Shown here in pieces: positions 11,099 to 53,748 of a DNA stretch of 54,009 nt (positions within the stretch are counted from its first letter, which is position 1; every line of letters starts with the position of its first letter). Below the pieces are notes generated by a model, which worked only from the letters and a program-made list of their open reading frames with translations, did no database searches and was not told the origin of the DNA. A program made the translations under genes and the position numbers. The DNA comes from Parcubacteria group bacterium (lineage in GTDB: Bacteria > Patescibacteriota > Patescibacteriia > Patescibacteriales > GWC2-42-12), in the NCBI GenBank assembly GCA_016188785.1, contig JACPHD010000034.1:1-54009 (forward strand), given 5' to 3'.

Positions 11099-11199
11099 AG
11101 TTTGGGCTAAGTTTATTAAATTTTCGAACGAGGACTGTTTGAGGCCGCCACAGGCGGGCGAGTTCCGCAGGAGAAAATTTAATAAACTTAGCCCAAACT
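11099..11199. repeat. palindromic element A1 (27-bp perfect arms, core CGAGGACTGTTTGAG...CGAGTTCCGCAG)
   Basis: 11099-11125 is the exact reverse complement of 11173-11199; core shared with 52099-52203. Confidence 0.9.
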
Positions 11200-46060: not shown

Positions 46061-46385
46061 CTTAAAGATTGAAAACGCAACTTAACAATTTACGCTTTGT
46101 AAAATATACGCAGCAGCTTTTTACAAAGCATGTTTAGTGCTAACAGGCGCTAATTCAAAATTAGAAGAATTAATTTCTTCAAATACACCCAGTGAAATTC
46201 GCTTTGCGACTATTTCACGGGGTAAATTTTTGCGTGTTTTTTAAAATACGTAACATGGAGCTACCATGGAAAAAACTTATTGAGAGTTTGACCCCGCCTC
46301 GGCGGGGTGAACGCTGACTCAACTTCGTTGAGAGCGTTCCTAACTTTCGCTAGGATTCAAGTAAACCTAGTAAAATAAACTTATT

Positions 46386-46425
<40 letters not shown>

Positions 46426-47246
46426 TCTAAGGCATGCAAGTCGAACGCGCCTCCGCTCTTCACTGCGTGAAGAGCTTCGGACGCGCAAGCGCCCTATCAT
46501 AAAATAGGGAGCTTGCTCACCGTAGCTCATGCGTAGCGATGAGCGGAGGTGAGTGGCAAACGGGTGCGTAACACATTGGTAACTTACCCCGAAGTCATGA
46601 ATAAGCTTGCGAAAGCGGGTCTAATACATGATGGAAGCGAGGGGACTAAAGTCATTCTCGCTTAAAGCCTCGCCCCGCATCTGCGGGGCGGGGCGCTTCG
46701 GGAAAGGCCTATGGCCTATCAGCTAGTTGGCGAGGTAAAAGCTCACCAAGGCAACGACGGGTAGCGGGTGTGAGAGCATGGCCCGCCTCACTGGGACTGA
46801 GACACTGCCCAGACTCCTACGGGAGGCTGCAGTCAAGAATATTCCCCAATGGCCGAAAGGCTGAGGGAGCGACGCCGCGTGTATGAGGAAGCCCTTCGGG
46901 GTGTAAAATACTTTTAACCGGGACGAATCAATGACGGTACCGGTTGAATAAGGGGCTGCTAAACTCGTGCCAGCAGCAGCGGTAATACGAGTGCCCCAAG
47001 CGTTATCCGGATTTATTGGGCGTAAAGCGTACGTAGGCGGTTTATCGCATCTCCTGTTAAATCCCGAGGCTCAACCTCGGGGCCGCGGGAGAGATGGCTA
47101 AACTAGAGACCGGGAGAGGCAAGTGGAATTGCTGGTGTAGGGGTTAAATCCGTTAATATCAGCAAGAACACCTAATGTGAAGACAGCTTGCTAGAACGGT
47201 TCTGACGCTAAGGTACGAAAGCGTGGGGAGCGAATGGGATTAGATA

Positions 47247-48306
47247 ATCCATGCCCGCTCATAAAATATAGGTAAAAGGTGTCTCTTTTGACGGCGACGT
47301 CAAGATGAAAATTCAGCTATATCGGGGAAACTCCTGACAAAATGAGGTTTTACTGGCCTCGCCAGGACAATCCCGAGGGAAGTTCCATGGCCCGAAAAGC
47401 CATGATGAACCCCGTAGAGACTATGAAGTTGGTTTCGAGATAGAAGGCGCATTAATTAAAATATATGAATCATTATGTGCCTTTGTCGGATCGCGCCAAG
47501 GAAATTATTCTTGGCTCGCTTTTAGGGGATGGATCATTAAAGATCCATGATAAATACAAGAATGCCAGATTTTCTTTCAGGCATTCCGAGGCGCAAAAAG
47601 ATTATTTCTTCTGGAAAGTAAAAAATCTGAAAGAAATATCTTCAAAAAATTGCGTTTTTTGGCAGGAAAACAACGGCGGATTCAGTTCTAATAAAAAAAT
47701 CAGGTATCAAAGCTTGGCCTTGCCGTCGCTTACTGAAATTTATCAACTTACCCATAAGAAAAAAAAATTGCGTATCAGCCGGAGATGGCTGAACAAAATG
47801 ACAGCTCTGTCATTGGCTATTTGGTGGTTTGATGACGGTTCGCTGATTGCCAACGGCCGCAAAGGAGTATTTTGCACAGATGGTTTTGACGAAAAAAGCG
47901 TTAAAACTCTAGCGCAATACTTCTTGGTCGTTTGGAAAATCAAGACTAAAGTCGCGCCAATTACCAGAAAAAGGCGGGGGGAGCAGAAAAAATATTGGCG
48001 GCTCTGGCTGTATTCAACGGAAGAGCTGAAAAAATTTCTGCGGCTGATATTGCCGCAGACGCCGACGGCAAGCGCTTTGTCGAAAGTCGCGCTTCTCTAC
48101 AATGATCAACAACTTCAACAACGCTGGATATCTGAAATAGTTCAGTTAAGCCGTTTTTCTCTATCTGCCATTATGGCAGAATATGAGAAAAAACGCGCTA
48201 AATGGAGCCGTTACAGATAAAGATCTAGTCCGGACTTCATGGTAACATGAAGAATGGGACAGAAATGTTCCCATCAATTGCTAAAAGCAATTTGCAACAA
48301 ATTCAA
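47247..48306 (+). other. group I-like intron in 16S rRNA (E. coli about position 794), splice sites inferred
   Basis: Exons ATTAGATA | CCCCAGTAGTCC; P7-like GAGACTA (47416-47423) and AAGATCTAGTCC (48219-48231) flank the endonuclease ORF; P9-like CTTCATGGTAACATGAAG. Confidence 0.85.
47465..48220 (+). CDS. LAGLIDADG homing endonuclease
   Basis: IILGSLLGDGSLKI and LSLAIWWFDDGSLIANGRKG dodecapeptide-type motifs. Confidence 0.93.
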   Translation: MNHYVPLSDRAKEIILGSLLGDGSLKIHDKYKNARFSFRHSEAQKDYFFWKVKNLKEISSKNCVFWQENNGGFSSNKKIRYQSLALPSLTEIYQLTHKKKKLRISRRWLNKMTALSLAIWWFDDGSLIANGRKGVFCTDGFDEKSVKTLAQYFLVVWKIKTKVAPITRKRRGEQKKYWRLWLYSTEELKKFLRLILPQTPTASALSKVALLYNDQQLQQRWISEIVQLSRFSLSAIMAEYEKKRAKWSRYR

Positions 48307-48441
48307 CCCCAGTAGTCCACGCCGTAAACGATGGATGCTGAGCATTGGAAGTATCGACCCTTCCAGTGCTGTCTACCTAAGTTAACACCTTAAGCATCCC
48401 GCCTGGGGAGTACGAGCGCAAGCTTAAAACTCAAAGGAATA

Positions 48442-48485
<44 letters not shown>

Positions 48486-48567
48486 AGTAAGCGAGGAACC
48501 TCACCAAGGTTTGACATCCGGCTGCAGACCCCTGGAAACAGGGGAGCCTTCGAGGGTGCCGGACAGA

Positions 48568-48604
<37 letters not shown>

Positions 48605-49277
48605 ACCGTTAATTCGGGAAACGAGCGCAACCCCTATCCTATGTTTCATGTGTCATAGGAAACTGCCCGCTTTAAGTGGGAGGAAGGTGGGGATGACGTC
48701 AAATCAGCATGGTTCTTACACCTTGGGCGACACACGTGCTACAATGGGAAGCACAAAGGGACGCCAAAGCGTAAGCTGGAGCAAATCCTTTAAAACTTCT
48801 CTCAGTTCGGATTGAGGTCTGCAACTCGACCTCATGAAGCTGGAATCGCTAGTAAACGTGGATCAGCCACGCCACGGTAATGCCCGAAGGCCCCGCATTT
48901 GCGGGGACGAAGGTAGGATCGATGATAGGGACGAAGTCGTAACAAGGCATCCGTAGCGGAAGCTGTGGATGGATCACCTCCTTTCTAGGGAGAAAAAAGA
49001 ATTTTCGATTGCAGATTTTCGATTTACGATTTCTGCGCGGAAATTCATAGTCGAAATTTTAGAGGCGAATTTGATTTTAAATCTAAAATCTAAAATCTAA
49101 AATCTAAAATTACCAGAGTTAGCGCCTGTTAGTACTAAATATAGTTAAAAGTTATAAAGTCCATAAAGTCAAAATTCAATGACTTTAAAGACTTTAGATT
49201 TTCAGACTTTTGACTCAAACAAATAGTTTATGGGCCTATTTGTCCCCCCTTCGCTAAAGCTACGGAGGATAAATTAT

Positions 49278-52098: not shown

Positions 52099-52203
52099 CT
52101 TAGTAAATAATGGCAAATTTTCGTGCGAGGACTGTTTGAGCCCCCCACCAAAATTTGGTGGGGGGCGAGTTCCGCAGTAGAAAATTTGCCATTATTTACT
52201 AAG
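52099..52203. repeat. palindromic element A2 (24-bp perfect arms, core CGAGGACTGTTTGAG...CGAGTTCCGCAG)
   Basis: 52099-52122 is the exact reverse complement of 52180-52203; inner CCCCCCACCAAAATTTGGTGGGGGG hairpin. Confidence 0.9.
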
Positions 52204-52230: not shown

Positions 52231-52878
52231 ATGAAAAAAATATCTGACGCTTTAAAAGAAATTATTAGCAACAACCAATTTTTAGCCTACGGCCTGTCTA
52301 ATAAACTCTTAAACTTAACCCAACTGGCCAAATATCTAAAACCATTAATTGAAACGCGGACTAAAAAAAATTTAAAAAGCGCCAGCGCGCTTTTAATGAT
52401 GTTGTCCCGACTGCAAAAAGAGTATGGCAAAAAAATTAAAGCGATTAATAAATTCAAAATTAATAATATTACTGCCTATTCCGGCTTATCTATCTATACT
52501 TACTCAAAAAATTATTCTTTTTTAGCCCAGTTAAGCAAGCTCTACGCCGCGCTTGAGCATTATAACAGCTATATAACCCTGGGCCAGGGCACGGACGAAA
52601 TCACGCTAATCATTAACGAGGCCGGCTCTAATGAACTAAAAAAATATATTAAAGACCAACCTAAACATTTTAGTAAAAATATTTCGGCTTTAAGCGTTAA
52701 ATTTTCTGAAAAATATCATCATGAATCAGGCTTGCTTTATTATTTAATCCAGGAAGTGGCCTTGCAAGGCATAAATATAAAAGAAATCGCCTCAACTTAC
52801 ACCGAGATTATTTTTTATGTTGATGAAAAAGATTTTAAATTGCTTTTTGACACTGTTTACAACCGTTTTGCCGGTTAA
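52231..52878 (+). CDS. hypothetical protein with ACT-like C-terminal region
   Basis: GLLYYLIQEVALQGINIKEIASTYTEIIFYVDEKDFKLLFDTV resembles an ACT fold. Confidence 0.65.
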   Translation: MKKISDALKEIISNNQFLAYGLSNKLLNLTQLAKYLKPLIETRTKKNLKSASALLMMLSRLQKEYGKKIKAINKFKINNITAYSGLSIYTYSKNYSFLAQLSKLYAALEHYNSYITLGQGTDEITLIINEAGSNELKKYIKDQPKHFSKNISALSVKFSEKYHHESGLLYYLIQEVALQGINIKEIASTYTEIIFYVDEKDFKLLFDTVYNRFAG

Positions 52879-53594
52879 AATTTTGGAATCAGCTTGGCGC
52901 TGGGACGGCCGGCTTTTTTCCAGGCTGAAAAAGTATTAAATTTAGAGTAGTCAATGGTCATAATTTTTTCCTGTTCCACATTATTTTTATACTGGCGGGA
53001 ATAGAAAATTATAAATTCTGGTTTTTTTGACCAGGACAAAGCCGCGGCCAAGGCGAATAAGTCGGCGATAACTCTATCCGCGTTCTCTTCATAATCGGCA
53101 AAAGCGCCAACCTCAAAAATCAGGCGCACATTGCCCCGGCCGTCATTCACGATAATATCAGCTTCAATATAACGTTTGCTGTCTTCGCCGCCGACTTTTA
53201 CATATCGCCCGAACTCAATCAGCTGCAGCTGGTATTTATACTTTTCAATAAGATTGACGAATAATCGCGCTTTAATTAAACCTTCTTCTTTATATCTTGA
53301 ATTTTGACCATTGCCGGATAAATAGACCACCCTTGATTCATCGCGGATAATAAAAACTTTGGGTAAAATTTCGTTTCTTTGCGCCGCGTAGCTGTCATAA
53401 TTTTTATCAGCCAGAGTATAGCCATTATTTTTACTCGCTGACAGCGCTTCAAATTTTTCCGCCGAAACTATCACTACTGTCGGCTTGCCCCGTTCGGTTA
53501 AAGTGTAATAAATATTAAATTTTCGCACTTCTTCAGCAATGCTAAAAATTTTTTTTCTGGCCTCGGTAATCGGCAAAACATTTTTTATTGTCAT
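52875..53594 (-). CDS. Phd/YefM-type antitoxin domain fused to a PD-(D/E)XK-like domain
   Basis: N-term NVLPITEARKKIFSIAEEVRKFNIYYTLTERGKPTVVIVSAEKFEAL; C-term EADIIVNDGRGNVRLIFEVG. Confidence 0.7.
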   Translation of the reverse strand: MTIKNVLPITEARKKIFSIAEEVRKFNIYYTLTERGKPTVVIVSAEKFEALSASKNNGYTLADKNYDSYAAQRNEILPKVFIIRDESRVVYLSGNGQNSRYKEEGLIKARLFVNLIEKYKYQLQLIEFGRYVKVGGEDSKRYIEADIIVNDGRGNVRLIFEVGAFADYEENADRVIADLFALAAALSWSKKPEFIIFYSRQYKNNVEQEKIMTIDYSKFNTFSAWKKAGRPSAKLIPKF

Positions 53595-53608
53595 GTTTTT
53601 GCGAGTGT

Positions 53609-53704
53609 AGCACTAACTTGATTCTGACTGCTTCCATCAGATGGATTTGCTCTAAATAAGATTTAAAAATAGTAGTATTTAGTGGACAGAATCAAGTTAG
53701 TGCT
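53609..53704. repeat. inverted repeat element with 18-bp perfect arms
   Basis: AGCACTAACTTGATTCTG (53609) / CAGAATCAAGTTAGTGCT (53687). Confidence 0.85.
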
Positions 53705-53748
53705 GCATGAGTTAATAATTATATGTACATTATACCGTACATATAATT

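Follow-up and report, generated by a model that had tools for sequence, protein, structure and literature searches.

A dispersed palindromic repeat with a conserved asymmetric core and lineage-specific self-complementary arms in a Parcubacteria genome and in other phyla

The short palindromic repeats of bacterial chromosomes that come closest to the element described here are the GTAG- and CGTC-tagged REP and REPIN sequences (PMC3733652, PMC3116915), MITEs, and single-copy inverted repeats maintained by template switching, a process that homogenises arms and inverts spacers (PMC8604942, PMC8794818). REPs are located between unidirectional or convergent genes (PMC3733652), and the present element shares this placement; it is likewise short, intergenic, palindromic, multi-copy, patchy and near gene 3' ends. 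Unlike REPs, whose stems measure 5-13 bp, it has variable outer arms of ~26 bp (mean 26.6 bp over 97 copies from the order) around a core of ~50 nt, and this core is asymmetric, conserved and common to many phyla, with no RAYT gene in cis. No unpaired GTAG or CGTC, the REP end motif, was conserved in the flank profiles of both arm ends. With template-switch-maintained inverted repeats the element has in common arm homogenisation, spacer inversion and frequent transversions among compensated changes (PMC8604942, PMC8794818), but those are single-copy hairpins, whereas here a dispersed repeat family carries a conserved core. In behaviour the element is REP/MITE-like but lacks the features that define REPs.

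Two copies lie on the forward strand of the window, the whole 54,009-nt stretch of DNA that was analysed. Copy 1 (11099-11199) has 27-nt arms of subfamily A at 11099-11125 and 11173-11199 that are exact reverse complements. Between them lie the core 5' half GAACGAGGACTGTTTGAG (11126-11143), a variable apical hairpin GCCGCCACAGGCGGG (11144-11158) and the core 3' half CGAGTTCCGCAGGA (11159-11172). Copy 2 (52099-52203) is built in the same way, with 24-nt arms at 52099-52122 and 52180-52203, again exact reverse complements and belonging to the TAATGGCAAATTTTC subfamily with relatives in other genomes, a 5' half GTGCGAGGACTGTTTGAG (52123-52140), an apical hairpin CCCCCCACCAAAATTTGGTGGGGGG (52141-52165) and a 3' half CGAGTTCCGCAGTA (52166-52179). 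Both therefore have the asymmetric layout CGAGGACTGTTTGAG-[variable hairpin]-CGAGTTCCGCAG; the GAGGACTGTTTGAG within the 5' half was mandatory in the search pattern that collected our 30-copy alignment (A1). An earlier note, made from the sequence of the window, had proposed a common core at these two loci and perfectly self-complementary outer arms of 27 and 24 bp, and both proposals are borne out. Its further statement that the arms are different sequences is true of copies 1 and 2 compared with each other, although both have arms that recur elsewhere in the family: copy 1 carries the common subfamily-A arm, and TAATGGCAAATTTTC, whole or for the most part, is common to copy 2 and four or more copies found in related genomes.

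Twenty shuffles of the window yielded no perfect inverted repeat of at least 24 bp with a 40-60 nt loop. A backward control pattern gave no match in every genome searched, so the core, with its 26 specified bases, is not a chance recurrence. Copy 1 is flanked by genes for ribulose-phosphate 3-epimerase and transketolase, both on the minus strand, and a 658-aa frame that crosses it from an upstream GTG start is probably an artefact. Elsewhere in the window, a further inverted repeat at 53606-53707 (21-nt arms 95% matched, 60-nt spacer lacking this core) adjoins a Phd/YefM antitoxin-like gene at 52875-53594, and the ~2.6-kb 16S rRNA gene at 46380-48984 contains an intron-like insertion whose ORF (47465-48220) encodes a LAGLIDADG endonuclease.

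The earlier note had suggested looking for further copies of the core in this and related genomes, and they are numerous. The window genome has 7 exact-core copies, a count that rises to 16 with a covariance model trained on 30 copies; copy numbers across four related genomes are 16, 27, 27 and 28. The distribution is patchy, with the element present, by the covariance model, in 20 of the 111 genomes from the order and the exact core in 3 of 379 genomes of a whole-phylum sample. Across bacterial and archaeal genomes, the exact core occurs in at least 119 stretches on more than 100 contigs from many phyla, a scan that required the exact core and so says nothing about core variability. Among the matches listed are Beta- and Gammaproteobacteria, Lachnospiraceae, Bacteroidota, Coriobacteriia, Myxococcota, Nitrospirae, Omnitrophota, Gastranaerophilales and several Patescibacteria, and isolates of Dechloromonas, Niveibacterium, Novimethylophilus, Barnesiella and Phascolarctobacterium are also among the matches listed. 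Thirty cross-phylum carriers have 1 to 41 exact copies per genome, and every lineage pairs the exact core with arms of its own. The covariance model also recovered copies in which one to several bases of the core have changed, and others whose interior differs. Four loci (L187, L247 at 1791-1892, L252 and L189) combine arms of this type and the GCGAGGAC...TCCGYAGC frame with a different interior (for example GACCGTTCGGCCGACCTTTTCTCCGTTTACA), as if the inner module of such palindromes were exchangeable. A long near-perfect palindrome of ~80 nt at L006 2825-2905 (TTAAACTTAAGTCCACAAGAATGTGGACTTAT...) is unrelated to this core.

Rfam gave no relevant family at gathering or permissive thresholds and no match above the gathering score, and no relevant paper in the library searched prints the sequence strings of the element. 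The repeat family, abundant and sharing one core across unrelated phyla, is thus undescribed in these two sources, and its arms evolve in concert. An exact-pattern search of viral contigs gave no core match; nor did plasmids, phages and E. coli collections match a 32-nt query, which by its shortness would overlook copies whose apical hairpin is long. That a cross-phylum core gave no match in the plasmid, phage and viral collections searched sits oddly with a selfish mobile element.

We interpret both window loci as members of a dispersed family of non-autonomous, mobile-type palindromic repeats, ~90-160 bp long, in which arms and core form one unit, shaped by template switching and by selection on the GAGGACTG strand, and we put the probability of this reading at about 0.62. 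Both arms would arrive or vanish with the core as a single unit; after insertion, the arms would diverge among copies while complementarity was kept within each copy. Subfamily B is enclosed at both ends by conserved terminal inverted repeats, CAGKACTTACGC, which are less clear in subfamily A, and for this reason the element resembles in its behaviour a MITE or a non-autonomous mobile palindrome of the REP type. The likeness to MITEs extends to small internally deleted derivatives and the lack of a gene; unlike a MITE, the element has no parent transposon that we could find, and the same core occurs in subfamilies with other outer sequences. The small derivatives (61-73 bp) keep the subfamily-B termini and what is left of the arms, a structure that deletion of the hairpin would produce. 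Between the same termini, the core is found in both orientations (L205, L206 and L241 versus L201, L237, L240, L245, L248 and L249). TA/TA flanks some copies and not others. No autonomous transposon was seen when we searched via the terminus in nine genomes and around the 119 core loci among the matches listed. A search for split or solo halves in genome G008, which might point to an autonomous copy with a gene in its apex, found none, and one of the 27 G008 copies has a mutated 3' half. Recurrent neighbours at the 119 cross-phylum loci among the matches listed and at 97 loci of the order were only housekeeping genes or spurious frames through the repeat.

The most evident candidate for the mobiliser is a Y1/RAYT transposase, and its association with the element is weak. 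Y1_Tnp genes were found in 17 of the 20 carriers in the order versus 40 of 91 non-carriers (Fisher p 0.001, uncorrected for phylogeny), genome G000 has a RAYT-like gene, and the position of the element between unidirectional or convergent genes is that of REPs (PMC3733652), all in line with a REP-like element mobilised by RAYT or another Y1 (HUH) transposase that acts on a folded single strand. We nevertheless regard such a scheme as unlikely: no Y1 gene was detected in G002 despite its 28 copies, only 17 of 30 carriers from other phyla have one, and the ends of the element are without GTAG or CGTC. Moreover, a RAYT gene flanked by the repeat is a trait of GTAG-type REPs, and the flanking stretches retrieved for 14 Y1 genes of the family gave no model match for the repeat or the core. 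Around the 119 core loci among the matches listed and the 97 loci of the order, there was no mobilising gene in cis.

We observed a consistent polarity between the two strands of the repeat. In the order, residual mismatches read on the GAGGACTG strand amounted to 55 G·T and 15 A·C when counted as distinct events (p 2e-6); the cross-phylum set, a few Falkowbacteria-type copies included, gave 100 versus 39 (p 2e-7). The same strand folds more stably in 95 of 97 copies, with GCG-A-GGACU paired with AGUUC-CGC. As the G·T excess recurs in two independent sets and falls on the more stable strand, selection probably acts on the folding of the GAGGACTG strand. Where the earlier note spoke of selection at the RNA level, selection on a folded strand holds up, and the folded molecule may be RNA or single-stranded DNA. 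A structured RNA on this strand, riboswitch-like or protein-binding and with arms kept by stepwise compensatory mutation, would suit the stability of the conserved asymmetric core, the equal wobble polarity in other phyla and the exactness of the core across many of them. We find it doubtful all the same, since both neighbours run antisense to the GAGGACTG strand in 70 of the 91 order copies with two flanking genes called, versus 8 sense (p 2e-13), no gene class is associated with the element, Rfam offers no match, and transversions are about as common as transitions among double changes in the arms.

Copies in the order lie ~27 nt behind one stop codon and ~28 nt ahead of the following start. 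Orientation varies in the other phyla, where many copies sit between convergent genes. The left flank profile of the order copies contains no -10/-35 signal, and a small RNA with its own promoter was rejected on this ground. A peptide from the reverse strand (MKxWxKFxKFSTAEL-like) was also rejected, as neither its frame nor its start is conserved. The antisense position of the folded strand, the lack of a promoter signal and the mixed orientation elsewhere disfavour a cis-regulatory RNA and, as far as sequence comparison goes, argue for a core that would be recognised as single-stranded DNA. Returning to the mobile repeat that we favour, the folded GAGGACTG-bearing strand would be both the target of the added selection and the form recognised by a putative trans-acting factor, and we infer that it is also the mobile form. 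What factor recognises and moves the core is the problem that the family raises. A bolder version, which we offer tentatively, is a new class of miniature elements in which the core, once folded as a single strand, would be the target of one conserved putative factor common to many phyla; the element would spread between chromosomes without the sampled plasmids or phages and without genes in cis, and its arms would drift freely as template switching re-copied one from the other.

How the two halves of a hairpin stay matched is an old question about the evolution of RNAs and palindromes, and with its dozens of copies in each genome group this family is a natural experiment that sets template switching against stepwise compensation. 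Arm pairs in the 97 order copies comprise 2404 Watson-Crick, 86 G·T, 26 A·C and 67 other pairs. When each copy was compared with its nearest relative, compensated double Watson-Crick changes outnumbered one-armed changes by 132 to 56; the double changes consist of 63 transversions and 69 transitions, the one-armed changes of 15 and 41, respectively. Stepwise compensation via G·U should strongly favour transitions. Template switching in a hairpin predicts frequent simultaneous changes, transversions included, as well as spacer inversion. The excess of double over one-armed changes, the frequent transversions and the inverted spacers would thus be well accounted for by snap-back homogenisation, and template switching inside the hairpin is probably the main process that would homogenise the arms and occasionally invert the core. 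Double changes do not cluster in the way that patch copying would predict (21 adjacent versus 19.2 expected), and because this multi-base signature is absent, we assign the homogenising role to template switching by inference. The snap-back synthesis suggested earlier accordingly survives in altered form, as upkeep of existing arms and not as insertion with inverted copying of the flank.

Lastly, we compared occupied and empty sites. The outer arms of 85% of the 97 order copies match another copy's arm above the null 95th percentile, and the copies form subfamilies that have similar arms at unrelated loci. Thirty-four gene pairs are still adjacent in G008, and 30 of them have no element there; at these 30 syntenic empty sites both arms are absent (own-site score 9.9 versus 9.7 at other sites), and the median excess length of occupied loci is 112 bp, against an element of ~100 bp (18 loci in the range used). 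The gain is that of the whole element, not of the element minus one arm. The flanking proteins of the empty-site species are mostly 55-94% identical, with spacers diverged to match and gain versus loss not polarised at single sites, yet the aggregate comparison is clear. Gain and loss are patchy, the arms travel with the element, and copies in place are short-lived. The earlier proposal that the core inserts with flanking DNA copied into a second, inverted arm, one arm being ancestral at each site, drew on the different yet perfect arms of copies 1 and 2 and could appeal to two G002 copies with a short 15-nt right arm (L248 and L249), but it is contradicted by arms common to unrelated loci, by their absence from the empty sites, where no ancestral arm was found, and by the whole-element gain, while L347 and L341 resemble hairpin deletions, and we consider it very improbable. 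Several of the G008 spacers empty of the element (L307, L314, L328 and L335) carry another dispersed repeat, GTCATTGCGAGCGA...GCAATCTCAC. One gene pair holds a subfamily-C copy in G007 (L012 1469-1561) and a subfamily-A copy in G012 (L254 1529-1633) and is empty in G008; the two copies are apparently independent insertions in one spacer.
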